Shown: positions 52,518 through 62,023 of the stretch, in pieces
Layout: every line of letters starts with the position of its first letter
Position numbering within the stretch: the first letter of the stretch is position 1
From: Cardiobacteriaceae bacterium
GTDB taxonomy: Bacteria; Pseudomonadota; Gammaproteobacteria; Cardiobacteriales; Cardiobacteriaceae
Direction: 5' to 3'
Assembly (NCBI GenBank): GCA_030525785.1
Contig: JAUNEA010000003.1
Span: 124,001-188,000, forward strand
Length of the DNA stretch: 64,000 nt
Translations under genes and position numbers: made by a program
Notes under the pieces: generated by a model
What the model saw: only the letters and a program-made list of their open reading frames with translations
Databases searched by the model: none
What the model was told of the DNA's origin: nothing

Positions 52518-53503
52518 GCCCGTTTCCTTAAAAATGGCGTTAATGACAACAAAAACAACAGCCCACCCAAGCCCTCAATCACCATACTCAGGCTGCCTGC
52601 AAGCCCCCAAAAACGCTCAAAAATCGTCTGCCCTAAAACCAGCATCAATCCAGCCATCATGGCAGATACAGGCAACAAAATGCTATGACGCGGCGTGGGG
52701 AACAATTGATACGTCAAAGCGCTTACCAGTAAACCAAAAAACAAAATAGGGCCTACCAATGCCGTTGAAATAGCTACAAGGCTTGCAGTCAACAACATCA
52801 AAACAAATACCTCTTTTGCATAATTCACACCCAAGCCAATCGCTTGCACACGCCCCAACGACAAAACATCTAACACAAAGCGCTTTTTCCACACATAAAC
52901 CAAATTCGCCAGTATCAAGAAGGTTGAAGGCAACAACAAAGCGCTTTGAGCGCGGTTGAATTGTGCATAAGCAATGCCTTGATAAAAGGCATATTCTGTT
53001 GGGTCAAGCAATCGCCCCATCAGCTGATTTAAATTGCGACACAACACGCCAAAAATCACGCCTATCAGCAACAAGCGATACAAATCATGTTGCAACAATG
53101 GGCGAGCCAAACCAAACAAAATCACTGCCATAGCCATCATCAAAGCGGTATTGCCTAAAAAACGAGTCAGTGGCGAGAGTTCGCTGTAGGCTGTTGTGGA
53201 GAAAAAGAAAATAAAGCCCATTTGAATTAGCAAATAAAGCGCATCTAAACCAATGAGCGATGGCGTTAAAATGCGATTGTGGCTGATGGTTTGAAACATC
53301 ACGGTAGACATGCCCACCGCCGCTCCAACCAATAACAAATTCCAAAGCTTCTCGCCACGATGAGTCAGCAAAAATGACCAACTCCCTGAAGCCTTAATCA
53401 ACATATAGCCCAAAGCGCTTAAGCACAGTGCCAACAAAAGCCACATCATGCGGCGTGTTAATGGCTGCTCCCAAAGCGCTTTGCAGCTCCAAGCCTTATT
53501 CAT
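52514..53503 (-). CDS. Siderophore ABC transporter permease (FatC/CeuC type)
   Basis: 329 residues from ATG 53503; an upstream in-frame start lies inside the partner gene. Nine or ten membrane helices of the FecCD fold, with SLIGLDALYLL, LIGVIFGVLCRNLNQLMGRLLDP and GPILFFGLLVSALTYQLFPTPRHSILLPVSA. Overlaps the other permease by 8 bases and the ATPase by 4. Forms the heterodimeric channel with the following entry. Confidence 0.9.
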   Translation of the reverse strand: MNKAWSCKALWEQPLTRRMMWLLLALCLSALGYMLIKASGSWSFLLTHRGEKLWNLLLVGAAVGMSTVMFQTISHNRILTPSLIGLDALYLLIQMGFIFFFSTTAYSELSPLTRFLGNTALMMAMAVILFGLARPLLQHDLYRLLLIGVIFGVLCRNLNQLMGRLLDPTEYAFYQGIAYAQFNRAQSALLLPSTFLILANLVYVWKKRFVLDVLSLGRVQAIGLGVNYAKEVFVLMLLTASLVAISTALVGPILFFGLLVSALTYQLFPTPRHSILLPVSAMMAGLMLVLGQTIFERFWGLAGSLSMVIEGLGGLLFLLSLTPFLRKRA

Positions 53504-54500
53504 GACGCACCTTTTGCAGCAACAACACCAAAAACAACCCTGCCCCCAAAACCCCAAATACGGTACTCACAGGAATCTCGTACGGAAAACGCAAACTACG
53601 CGACAACACATCGCAAAACAATAAACACGATACCGAAAGCCACGCACTCCAAGGCAAGCTTCTACGCAAATGATCGCCACAAAAACGGCGCACAATATTG
53701 GGCATCACCAAACCTAAAAACGCAATCATGCCTACGGTAATCACGGTCAAAGCCGTCATCATCGCTACGCTCATCATCGACAACAAAACCAATTGCCGAT
53801 AAGGTAAGCCTAGAGAGGTTGCCATCTGTTGCCCCATGCCAATGATGGTTAAACGATCTGCCAAGTAATAGGCAAAAGCTGCCGCAAAACCGCCTACCCA
53901 CAGCAATTCATAACGCCCACGCAAAACAGCCGAGAAATCGCCCGAAAGCCAAGTATTCAACAGCTGCAAAATCTCATACTCATAAGCCCAAAACTCCGCA
54001 ACCGCGCCAATGATGCCACCGTAAATCATGCCCACCAAAGGCACCAGCAAGCTATCGCGCACAGGTAAGCGCTTTGCCAACGCCAAAAAGAGCAACATCG
54101 AACCAAAGGCACAAACTGCCGCCACCCCCATTTTCGCCATCACACTCCAATGTGGGGCAAGTAATGTAACCGCAACCAAGCCCAATGCCGCACCTTCTGC
54201 TGTGCCTGCTGTTGAAGGCTCTACAAAACGATTATGCACCACCATTTGCATCAATAACCCAGCCACCGACATGGAAATGCCCGTCAGCCAAATCGCTGCC
54301 GTTCGTGGCACGCGGCTTTCTACAAATATCATTCGCGCCTTTTCATCGTGCCATACATTTTTCCAATCAACTTCCACCACGCCCACGTATAAACTAAGCA
54401 ACGACAGCCCTAAAAGAACTGTCGTTGCCAGAAAACAAGCATGTTGGTTAATCAAACTCCCCCAAAAGCGCTTTGGGGATTGGGTTTGCTTATTTGCCAC
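53496..54500 (-). CDS. Siderophore ABC transporter permease (FatD/CeuB type)
   Basis: 334 residues. FecCD fold, with VESRVPRTAAIWLTGISMSVAGLLMQMVVHNRFVEPSTAGTAEGAALG near the N-terminus and VGMIAFLGLVMPNIVRRFCGDHLRRSLPWSA towards the end, both diagnostic of the first permease of such operons. No ATG start exists in the right place. GTG at 54500 (AGAGG six bases before) is preferred over TTG at 54503. The start overlaps the binding-protein stop, indicating translational coupling. Confidence 0.9.
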   Translation of the reverse strand: MANKQTQSPKRFWGSLINQHACFLATTVLLGLSLLSLYVGVVEVDWKNVWHDEKARMIFVESRVPRTAAIWLTGISMSVAGLLMQMVVHNRFVEPSTAGTAEGAALGLVAVTLLAPHWSVMAKMGVAAVCAFGSMLLFLALAKRLPVRDSLLVPLVGMIYGGIIGAVAEFWAYEYEILQLLNTWLSGDFSAVLRGRYELLWVGGFAAAFAYYLADRLTIIGMGQQMATSLGLPYRQLVLLSMMSVAMMTALTVITVGMIAFLGLVMPNIVRRFCGDHLRRSLPWSAWLSVSCLLFCDVLSRSLRFPYEIPVSTVFGVLGAGLFLVLLLQKVRHE

Positions 54501-55380
54501 CAAATGCCTCTTTCAATTCAACCATAACCTCTTTCAACGCTTTAGGGCCGCCTACGTTGATGTAGATGTTGTGGGTATTGGGGTAGATAACTTGGTTGTT
54601 TTTCCAAGCCGTTGTGCCGTGTACCAAAGGATTATCCAGCGTTTGCTTCGCACTCGCCCCATCTTGACCAATAGCTGATAAGCGGTCTAAGGCATAAATC
54701 CAATCAGGATTGACTTCCGCCACATATTCAAAAGTGACAGGCTCGCCATGACGACCAACTTTCTTGTCATCATGCACCAAATTTAAGCCCAATTCTGAAG
54801 CCAACCAGTTCGCGCGAGATTGAGGGCCATAAAGAGCAATTTTTTGACCATTCACCAATAAGCCCAAAACTTTACCTTTACCTTCCGCCAACTTTTTCAC
54901 TTCATCGCGTAAGCCATTCAACTCCTCAGTAAGTGCTTTGGCTTCATCAGCTTTACCAAATACCTCACCCACAGAATTCAAACGCGCTACGCCTTCTTGG
55001 AATGAATTTTTGCCCTCAAGGGTTAAATCCACTGTTTTTGCAACTTTGCTGACATCATCGTATTTAGCTTGTGTACGCACCGCAACCACAATCAAATCAG
55101 GCTTCAATTCGTTCAACTTCTCCAAATCAGGCTCAAAGAAAGTGCCAACTTGCGCCACATCTCCCAAACCGTATTCCTCAGCCAAACGCCCACCAGGAAT
55201 ACCCACGATTTTGTCACTTAAGCCTAAAGCAATGAACGTATCAATCATGCCTGGATCCAAAACCACTACACGTTCTGGAGCTTTATCAAATTCCACATCA
55301 CCTTTCGCTGTTTTCAACGTTGCCGCTTGAGCAATAGCACATGCTAAAGCACAAGAAGCCAGTAACCATTTTTTCAACAT
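54490..55380 (-). CDS. Siderophore-binding periplasmic protein (FatB/CeuE/VctP type)
   Basis: 296 residues. Signal peptide MLKKWLLASCALACAIAQAA; the Cys residues do not form a clear lipobox followed by a normal mature start, so it may be soluble. Class III binding-protein fold: RVVVLDPGMIDTFIALGLSDKIVGIPGG, KPDLIVVAVRTQAKYDD (with the Arg/Tyr region that in CeuE contacts catecholate siderophores) and NPDWIYALDRLSAIG. First gene of the operon. I see no clear Fur box in the 210-base upstream gap. Confidence 0.9.
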   Translation of the reverse strand: MLKKWLLASCALACAIAQAATLKTAKGDVEFDKAPERVVVLDPGMIDTFIALGLSDKIVGIPGGRLAEEYGLGDVAQVGTFFEPDLEKLNELKPDLIVVAVRTQAKYDDVSKVAKTVDLTLEGKNSFQEGVARLNSVGEVFGKADEAKALTEELNGLRDEVKKLAEGKGKVLGLLVNGQKIALYGPQSRANWLASELGLNLVHDDKKVGRHGEPVTFEYVAEVNPDWIYALDRLSAIGQDGASAKQTLDNPLVHGTTAWKNNQVIYPNTHNIYINVGGPKALKEVMVELKEAFGGK

Positions 55381-55605
55381 AAATTCACCTTAAGTTATCA
55401 GTTTAAAAAAGAACTCAAATAGTACTTTTTCTTATTTAAATTTTCAAGAAATCTTACTAGGTATCCATGACAAATCATCTGTTTCTCTATCATGTCCCAC
55501 AAACCAATGAAGGATTTCTCATCACTCCGTAAAAGTTGGCATCTAAAATCATGCTAGAATCCAGACTTTGTACACAACAAGTCACATACAATGGAGGTAA
55601 AACAT
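55381..55605. promoter_or_regulatory. Divergent intergenic region between siderophore operon and Slam gene
   Basis: About 225 AT-rich bases that must contain promoters for both directions. I find no confident Fur box or promoter and no palindrome. The only strong element is the GGAGG ribosome site at 55593-55597 for the Slam-like gene. Confidence 0.5.
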
Positions 55606-57120
55606 ATGTCTCGGAAATATTCCACTCGCGCTTTGCTCGCGCTCACCATCAGCACTATTCTTAGCCAAAGCGCTTTTGCTCAAGAACGCTCTAACCCCAA
55701 AGCCCAATATGAAGCCAAAACCAAAAGCGCTTTGGAATCCACACAAGAAGAACCCAGCAAAATCCAACAACGCGAACTAAACGCTCACATCTTGGCACAA
55801 AATAAACTCAGCACAGAATCCCCTCTCCATGCTTATACGGACGAAGATTTAAGTCAAAATCAAGAATTATTAGAGAAAGTCTTTCTGATGGCTCTCATTC
55901 AAATGGATCGCCCTGCTTTAGAAGAATTGATTAAACTCTATCAACCTATGCCCAATCGTGATGATTCTTTAATTGATTGGGCAAATGCTATTATTATTTC
56001 CCCAACCAATCGTGAACAATCTATTAGCGAAATGCGTAAACTCATTTCTCATTTCCCTGATAATGATTACATACGCTTCCAATTAGCAACTTTCTTATTC
56101 TTCAATGAAGAATTTATCGCTGCCAAAGACCAATTTGAAAAAACCAAAAGCTCAAATAGATTAAAAGAAGCAGACCGTAAGCTGATTGATGAATTTATCA
56201 CAGTCATTGATAACAAAGATCGCTGGAATTTTAATGCCAGTGCTACATTCTTAAATGATAAGAACTTAAGCAACTCTGCTCCTGTTGGCACCAAAATGCT
56301 TTTGCCTAATGGTGGCTCATTCACCCAATCTACACCTCTAGAAGAAGGTCGTGGCTTTGCGCTCAATCTTGGCGCAGATAAGCGCTTTAGCTTAGGAGGC
56401 GGTCGATACATTTCATTGGAATTAGGCAGCTACATCAAGCATTACTGGAACAACAAAAAATACAACGAAATTATCTTCAATGCTGGCGTTGGCTATGGTT
56501 TGAATTATAAAGGTTGGAATATAGAAGTTTCACCCAATATTTCACGTCGTTTGTATGGCGGTGGCTCAAGTGGTGATGGTAAGCAATTACATGCCTATTA
56601 TACCTCTTATGGCATTAATACTTATGCCAGTACTTGGGTAAATCCAAAAATTCGTTATAGCTTAAACTATAGCTTTGACTATGATAAATATGACCGCGAT
56701 GCGCTTGCCAACCGTCAAAATGGTGCAACTCATTCTATCAGCAATTCTATTACCTATATCGCAAGCCCCAAACAATATTGGTCAGCCAGCCTTAACCTTG
56801 CCCACCGCAATTCTAAAGACGATTCCAATAGCTATAATCGTATTGGGGGCAATATTGCTTGGGGGCAAGAATGGCCTATGGGATTCTCTAGCCGTTTATC
56901 TTTAGGATTGGCACAACGCAATTACTCAGAAATGGATTTCTTCCAAATCAAACAGAAAAATAAAGAATACAGCGCTGGTCTCTCCATTTGGAACAAAGCG
57001 CTTCATTATCAAGGATTAACACCTCGCCTCACTTGGAGCTATAACAAAACCGATAGCAGTATCCCTTTCTACAGCTATGACAAGCACCAAATCTTCCTCG
57101 AAGTCAGCAAAACGTTTTAA
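55606..57120 (+). CDS. Surface lipoprotein assembly modifier (Slam)-like outer-membrane protein
   Basis: 504 residues from ATG 55606, chosen for the GGAGG 8 bases upstream. Signal peptide ends SQSAFAQ. An N-terminal helical/TPR-like region (about 30-200) is followed by a beta-barrel domain starting RWNFNASATFLNDKNL (about residue 206) and ending KHQIFLEVSKTF, which matches the DUF560 barrel of Slam proteins. Slam exports lipoproteins to the cell surface. No candidate surface lipoprotein lies beside it; neighbours are the siderophore importer and gor. The substrate must be elsewhere or it is a divergent member. Confidence 0.78.
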   Translation: MSRKYSTRALLALTISTILSQSAFAQERSNPKAQYEAKTKSALESTQEEPSKIQQRELNAHILAQNKLSTESPLHAYTDEDLSQNQELLEKVFLMALIQMDRPALEELIKLYQPMPNRDDSLIDWANAIIISPTNREQSISEMRKLISHFPDNDYIRFQLATFLFFNEEFIAAKDQFEKTKSSNRLKEADRKLIDEFITVIDNKDRWNFNASATFLNDKNLSNSAPVGTKMLLPNGGSFTQSTPLEEGRGFALNLGADKRFSLGGGRYISLELGSYIKHYWNNKKYNEIIFNAGVGYGLNYKGWNIEVSPNISRRLYGGGSSGDGKQLHAYYTSYGINTYASTWVNPKIRYSLNYSFDYDKYDRDALANRQNGATHSISNSITYIASPKQYWSASLNLAHRNSKDDSNSYNRIGGNIAWGQEWPMGFSSRLSLGLAQRNYSEMDFFQIKQKNKEYSAGLSIWNKALHYQGLTPRLTWSYNKTDSSIPFYSYDKHQIFLEVSKTF

Positions 57121-60991: not shown

Positions 60992-62023
60992 ATGATTAAA
61001 CGTGCTTTGATTGTTGATGACTCTCGCCTTGCTCGTCTCACACTGAAACGCTTGCTGGAAAAAAATGGCGTAGAAGTGAATGAGGCTGAGGGTGTAATTG
61101 ATGCCGAAGAATTACTCGGACATATCCAAAAACCCGATGTGGTTTTTATGGATATCATGATGCCTGATTTAGATGGTTATGCTGGCTTAGCACGTCTACG
61201 CGACAATCCAGATACACGTAGCCTCCCTGTTATCATGTATTCAGGTGATAGCTCTGATGAAGCGCGTGACCGTGCTAAAGATGCTGGCGCAACAGGTTAC
61301 TTGCAAAAACCTGCCGATGGCGATCGTTTGAATGTTATTTTGAACGCCATCAACAGCCATATCCAAAAAACAGGAACTGCACCCAGCGCTCCACGCCCTG
61401 AAGTTAAGCCACAAGCTGCTCCGAAGAAAATCGAACGCTTTGAAGGCTTATCTCTCAATGCTTCTAAGCCCACTACCGAAACCTCATCAAGCAGCACTAC
61501 CAGCGCAACCACTATCGCCTCTGCAGCCCCTGCCTCTACCACGCAAAACGCTCCTTTAACCTCTCCCAACACCAATCTCGCCACCAATGCGCTTGCCAAT
61601 GCGCAATCTGACATGATTAAGCGCCTGCAAACTCGAGCTGATGACAGCGAATCGCGTTTGAGCGAAGTCAATCAAAATTTCCAAGTCAAAACAAACGAAT
61701 TAACCTTACAAGTGAAGCAGCTAGGGCATGATGTTTCCCAACAACTTGCCCAACAAAATGAAAACATCGATAAACGCCTCTCTCATAGTGTCAATGAACT
61801 TGAAAAGCGTTTACAAAATAGCTTCAACGACCATAACCACCGCATCACTCAATTGGAACGTCGCCCTGCCCAAACAGGCGATACAGAACGCTTACAGCGA
61901 GATATTGTCTACCTTCAACGCCAACTGGTTTCTATGGAAAAATTCTCCAAAATTGCGATTGCAGTAGGTAGTGTAGGCATTGTGCTGGGACTTTTGTCGG
62001 TAATGTGGCATATTTTGAAGTAA
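60992..62023 (+). CDS. Response-regulator receiver with coiled coil and C-terminal membrane anchor
   Basis: 343 residues. Receiver domain (1-122): acidic pair D9/D10, phosphoacceptor Asp54 in VVFMDIMMPD, Ser84 in IMYSGDSSD, Lys106 in YLQKPADG. A Pro/Ala/Thr/Ser linker (about 128-205) precedes a coiled coil (about 205-315) and one hydrophobic helix at the end (IAIAVGSVGIVLGLLSVMW). No DNA-binding or enzymatic output is present. It appears to be a membrane-tethered signalling protein, presumably acting by protein contact. No histidine kinase gene is nearby. Gene contains no perfect palindrome. Confidence 0.85.
   Translation: MIKRALIVDDSRLARLTLKRLLEKNGVEVNEAEGVIDAEELLGHIQKPDVVFMDIMMPDLDGYAGLARLRDNPDTRSLPVIMYSGDSSDEARDRAKDAGATGYLQKPADGDRLNVILNAINSHIQKTGTAPSAPRPEVKPQAAPKKIERFEGLSLNASKPTTETSSSSTTSATTIASAAPASTTQNAPLTSPNTNLATNALANAQSDMIKRLQTRADDSESRLSEVNQNFQVKTNELTLQVKQLGHDVSQQLAQQNENIDKRLSHSVNELEKRLQNSFNDHNHRITQLERRPAQTGDTERLQRDIVYLQRQLVSMEKFSKIAIAVGSVGIVLGLLSVMWHILK

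Follow-up and report, generated by a model that had tools for sequence, protein, structure and literature searches.

Receiver, linker, stalk and tail of the window protein

We analysed a 64,000-nucleotide stretch of DNA (called the window below) from a Cardiobacteriaceae bacterium (assembly GCA_030525785.1, contig JAUNEA010000003.1, positions 124,001 to 188,000 of the forward strand). The open reading frame (ORF) at positions 60992-62023 of its plus strand, which starts with ATG, encodes a protein of 343 residues in which an intact receiver domain is joined by a disordered linker and a long helical stalk to a single membrane helix at the extreme C-terminus. The host genome (G000) has 1.6 Mb, and the assembly is 93.67% complete. 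An original prediction, made from the sequence alone, had described this product as a membrane-tethered receiver without output domain. The gene can be divided as follows.

60992..62023, plus strand: whole gene of the tail-anchored receiver protein, 343 residues (ORF list and 13-member family alignment)
60992..61372, plus strand: receiver (REC) domain, residues 1-127 (Pfam PF00072, confidence of the structure model, CheY/RR468-like fold)
61151..61153, plus strand: codon of D54, the predicted phospho-acceptor (invariant in 13/13 orthologue rows and 14/14 rows of a wider alignment)
61373..61585, plus strand: disordered linker rich in P, A, S and T, residues 128-198 (model confidence, composition)
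61586..61858, plus strand: long amphipathic helix, probable coiled coil, residues 199-289 (model helix, periodicity)
61874..61951, plus strand: juxtamembrane helix, residues 295-320, basic immediately N-terminal to the membrane (model helix 295-342, residues of the N-terminal flank)
61952..62008, plus strand: C-terminal membrane helix (tail anchor), residues 321-339 (hydropathy 2.29, kept in 13/13 orthologues)

Pfam model PF00072 matched residues 6-115 with an E-value of 1.1e-24 and a score of 87.1 bits (gathering score, 30.2). All the residues of the phospho-site (D9, D10, D54, S84 and K106) were present and were invariant across 13 aligned orthologues, while D9, D10, D54 and K106 were kept in all 14 rows of the wider alignment. 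Judged from its sequence, the window protein carries a complete receiver that looks phosphorylatable, as had been predicted. The Pfam scan found the receiver only, with no second domain above cut-off and no output domain; the DNA-binding domain Trans_reg_C was not found. Among the matches listed for NCBIfam, no model exceeded its cut-off, and the PhoB model reached 51.9 bits, far below the 296.2 needed. The receiver was also the only domain to pass in the eight relatives scanned with Pfam, the other listed matches being sub-threshold. Derivation from PhoB was rejected for want of a DNA-binding domain.

An AlphaFold2 model made from the 13-row alignment had a mean predicted local distance difference test score (pLDDT) of 77.1 and a predicted template modelling score of 0.42. 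The pLDDT was at least 93 in every ten-residue block over residues 1-120 and 73 over residues 121-130. Foldseek returned RR468 first (template modelling score by target, 0.91), followed by CheY and PhoB, and the 50 matches listed were ordinary receivers. The low-complexity linker of the original prediction was borne out by composition (45 of the 71 residues at 128-198 are P, A, S or T) and by a pLDDT below 50 over residues 129-201. Beyond it, the model had two helices, at 199-289 and 295-342, the second of which continued through the membrane segment. The first showed a near-heptad period of hydrophobic residues that was equalled by none of 5000 shuffles, while residues 295-318 taken alone had no significant heptad signal (equalled by 669 of 5000 shuffles). 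The long coiled coil that had been proposed is thus probable for the first helix.

Membrane helices were assigned throughout with Kyte-Doolittle windows rather than with a trained predictor. The best 19-residue window of the protein had a hydropathy of 2.29 (residues 321-339) and was followed by H-I-L-K and the stop codon; outside the C-terminal region the best window reached 0.78. When the whole protein was shuffled, 37 of 10000 sequences attained 2.29 anywhere. Six other receiver proteins of G000, measured as full ORFs, had maxima of 1.08-1.56, none of them membrane-grade. By hydropathy, the protein thus has the layout of a tail-anchored protein, without an N-terminal signal and with its only membrane helix at the very C-terminal end. 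Because almost nothing lies past the membrane, the last helix can anchor the protein but cannot carry an exported domain.

Conservation in Cardiobacteriaceae

An orthologue was found in 12 of 12 genomes of the family examined and in one further genome of the order (G013). In the resulting set of 13, the rows of G001 and G007 were identical as aligned. The relatives of G000 that were identified are Cardiobacterium hominis, C. valvarum, Dichelobacter nodosus and Rappaport israeli, besides several metagenome-assembled genomes. Overall identity to the window protein was 33-44%. Each of the 13 orthologues had a membrane-grade segment (2.03-3.13) ending 1-9 residues short of the C-terminus and no such segment outside the last 60 residues, and no homologue without the helix was found in this set. 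At the level of sequence, the tail is conserved as hydrophobicity and not as a string of residues, while the phospho-site is invariant. We consider this conservation a stronger test of the tail helix than the shuffling.

Gene neighbourhood

In the window, the gene lies next to a DUF2130 gene, itself located after rlmJ; the ORFs on the other side are presumably ackA and pta. In 12 of the 13 loci the gene sits in a coaBC neighbourhood, with coaBC divergent, and in 9 of 13 it directly follows radC, so that its position in the window is probably derived. A scan for promoters and terminators was uninformative, its 2 and 4 sites being outnumbered by those in shuffled sequence. Outside the order, neighbourhoods probed with argB, dut, coaBC, radC and phoR contained no coaBC and no radC, and phoR was seen only as weak kinase matches at one locus.

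The absence of an adjacent kinase, noted in the original prediction, holds in the window but not as a general trait, as a gene for a PhoR-type kinase lies directly downstream in 4 of the 13 loci, those of G003, G004 (Dichelobacter), G005 (Rappaport) and G009. The gaps between the receiver gene and phoR are 7, 14, -1 and 15 bases. PhoB scored highest away from the receiver locus in G003, G004 and G009 (276, 252 and 267 bits), while G005 gave 194 bits at best, which is not PhoB-grade. These loci would fit a gene that has replaced phoB beside phoR and that provides a dedicated second partner for the kinase, in an envelope branch of phosphate signalling. We regard this as improbable, since 9 of the 13 loci have no adjoining phoR, the top PhoR match of G000, at 130 bits, is not PhoR-grade and the PhoR-type kinase of Rappaport israeli (L036:10459-11709, plus strand) has a Tyr in place of the phospho-His. 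An obligate partnership with PhoR was rejected because phoR adjoins the gene in only 4 of 13 loci and one of these kinases is without the phospho-His.

Dichelobacter nodosus has another receiver from this subfamily, which forms an in-frame fusion with RadC (L035:8912-10117 and L074:4778-5983, both plus strand). This REC-RadC fusion has 401 residues and intact phospho-site residues, and is encoded directly upstream of the tail-anchored receiver. That receiver and RadC act in one pathway would agree with this fusion and with the presence of radC directly upstream of the gene in 9 of 13 loci. However, four genomes in which the search gave no RadC domain (G000, G001, G007 and G013) still encode the protein, and a tandem duplication followed by read-through would equally yield the fusion. 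We give this idea very little weight, and RadC as an obligate partner was rejected on account of the same four genomes.

Elsewhere in the window (53496-57120), the gene of a surface lipoprotein assembly modifier (Slam; SlipAM, 9.3e-69) has as neighbours the genes of a periplasmic binding protein and of a permease of the FecCD type, likely a set for metal or haem uptake.

Tethered receivers in other Gammaproteobacteria

The original prediction had called the arrangement rare and had proposed a survey of domain architectures. We searched 369 sampled gammaproteobacterial genomes with a 13-row profile and scored up to six candidates per genome. Matches at an E-value of 1e-24 or better occurred in 65 of the 369. 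Among the 46 best-ranked matches, 45 were examined (G229:C61 was left out), and 43 of these were membrane-tethered, 24 by a single C-terminal helix and 19 by a helix in the middle of the protein with a further part beyond it. This split is a hand tally; an automated sort had given 38/19/6, with several loci duplicated. The two untethered proteins were the Dichelobacter REC-RadC fusion and the product of an ORF of 222 residues (L172). Another untethered match (L178), which owed its high score to two receivers, ranked just below the top 46. Also below these were a tail form (G379:C12) and a mid-helix form (G045). Counting these two, at least one tethered receiver is encoded in 42 of the 369 genomes (tail form in 24, mid-helix form in 20); these counts are lower bounds, because only six candidates were scored per genome. 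The arrangement is thus uncommon but not singular, and the word 'rare' needs correction, since at least 24 of the 369 genomes carry the tail-anchored form. A relative from the Competibacteraceae (L082) has it also.

The mid-helix proteins (which we call 'type B'; L159, L160, L163, L164, L165, L167 and others) have about 440-490 residues and a likely periplasmic part. In L160, L165 and L168, only the receiver passed the Pfam cut-off. The linkers were unrelated between the recurrences of the tethered layout. In a phylum-wide search, the matches listed from outside the class were mostly long multi-domain frames or frames of about 450 residues, as judged by frame length only. Profile A3 was less specific than profile A1 and chiefly added frames of 120-140 residues; these are probably PilH or PilG, we assume, as several share a contig with a frame of more than 2000 residues. 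It also gave receivers with hydrophobic C-termini in G518 and G553, which are outside the tallies.

A tree of 76 receiver domains (125 alignment columns) placed all the tethered rows in one REC group (Shimodaira-Hasegawa-like approximate likelihood ratio test, 92), together with the untethered L172 and the REC-RadC fusion. The PilH rows branched next outside this group. A membrane-fixed relative of PilH could steer the motors of type IV pili, and PilT was above cut-off in all 42 genomes that encode a tethered receiver (counted by hand) as compared with 309 of 369 overall (hypergeometric p = 3.5e-4, uncorrected for relatedness or genome size). This excess is a lead only, because reduced genomes tend to be without both and because relatedness was uncorrected. 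No pilus gene was recognised beside the window gene, around which no ChpA or chemosensory pilus cluster was found, and none of the 8 receivers of G000 is Chp-type; relatives that have frames of the size of ChpA are without the protein. We consider a pilus regulator quite unlikely. More generally, the role in motility, polarity or a secretion machine suggested in the original prediction was not supported, as the kinship with PilH and the excess of PilT are weak and confounded, and a Chp-type receiver is absent from G000.

Candidate kinases and partners in the host genome

A Pfam search of G000 gave these 8 receivers and seven histidine kinases, after three ATPases had been set aside, which we take from their frame size to be GyrB, ParE (in this case also from the N-terminus) and a protein of the HSP90/MutL type. 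Six of the seven kinases have a receiver gene beside them. The seventh (C2:19609) has none, and an unpaired OmpR-type receiver lies 16 kb from it. Of the others, three are Hpt-type (C2, C11 and C15), and the rest are PilS-like, NtrY-like and QseC-like. No kinase of G000 can be named as the partner of the window protein.

Three loci of G000 (L184 on C15, L185 on C2 and L186 on C11) encode a CheY-like receiver together with a membrane kinase that has Hpt and HATPase domains, and two of these clusters also contain a gene for a CheX phosphatase. CheX was present in 8 of 12 genomes of the family, and for this reason an obligate partnership with such a Hpt-kinase/CheY/CheX cluster was rejected. An obligate Chp partner was likewise rejected, G000 having no Chp-type receiver.

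Interpretation

We propose, with a probability of about 0.6, that the window protein is a phospho-switch of the CheY/PilH type that is held at the inner membrane and whose output is a protein contact. The N-terminus would be inside, and the receiver would be permanently fixed on the cytoplasmic face of the inner membrane, at the end of a flexible linker and of a long helical stalk that we infer to be dimeric or of higher order. The phosphate on D54 would come from at least one kinase whose gene lies elsewhere; in some relatives, the adjoining PhoR-type kinase may be the donor. Phosphorylation would then shift which membrane-associated protein is contacted by the receiver surface, and the output would be this contact at the membrane, neither DNA binding nor an enzymatic activity.

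Several observations weigh against this proposal. No candidate partner is present throughout: phoR and radC adjoin the gene in 4 and 9 of the 13 loci, CheX occurs in 8 of 12 genomes, and Chp-type receivers are absent from G000. One of the four adjoining kinases, that of Rappaport israeli, has the Tyr mentioned above. The tree is poorly resolved, with 35 of 72 branches open on its 125 columns, and a forced strict clade of tethered receivers was 17.9 log units worse and was not rejected (p = 0.138).

A receiver without output domain could also serve as a phosphate sink, draining phosphoryl groups from membrane kinases and so shortening or insulating another signal, with no need of an output partner. 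The tether would hold the receiver near such kinases, and PilH, which among soluble proteins branches closest in the tree, antagonises PilG (PMC10519157). The long conserved stalk would be superfluous in a sink, however, and a non-phosphorylatable, active-like PilH is reported still to reduce the phosphorylation of PilG, so that PilH itself is no plain sink (PMC10519157). We find a sink unlikely. The explanations involving PhoR, the pilus or RadC each specify a partner and are compatible with a switch that acts by protein contact.

More tentatively, the tethered receivers may constitute one gammaproteobacterial family of stalked phospho-switches that organise an inner-membrane machine, with an offshoot reaching into the periplasm, possibly for inside-out signalling, and one lineage fused to RadC; we think this extension possible but doubtful.

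Comparison with known systems

CheY and PilH are soluble proteins of about 120-130 residues. Like CheY and the single-domain regulators PilG and PilH, the window protein has a complete receiver without DNA-binding or enzymatic output; unlike them, it adds a linker, a stalk and a membrane anchor, and with its 343 residues and membrane helix it does not belong to the single-domain CheY type (receiver only, about 120-130 residues, soluble). It shares the receiver with the PhoB/OmpR regulators, and 4 of the 13 relatives also have the gene directly upstream of phoR, but the protein is without their Trans_reg_C domain. The 'type B' proteins, in which REC is followed by a membrane helix and a periplasmic part, fall in the same REC group and likewise have a single membrane helix and no known output. 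Their helix is in the middle of the protein, with about 200 residues past it in most, whereas the window protein has almost none.

The component parts are thus already known, while the tethered gammaproteobacterial group apparently has neither a name nor a known job. Our literature search found no description of it, with the limit that subscription journals were thinly covered and a published census could list the group. In two-component signalling, the response regulator is commonly regarded as the soluble half, and a conserved membrane-fixed group would make the location of the phosphorylated receiver part of the signal. As some host genomes encode few receivers (8 in G000), the kinase and the output can be searched for.

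Membrane-anchored response regulators have been described in methanogenic archaea (PMC5847659). One of these, MetOD3, combines a receiver with a C-terminal portion that is anchored in the membrane, and in this it resembles the window protein (PMC5847659).
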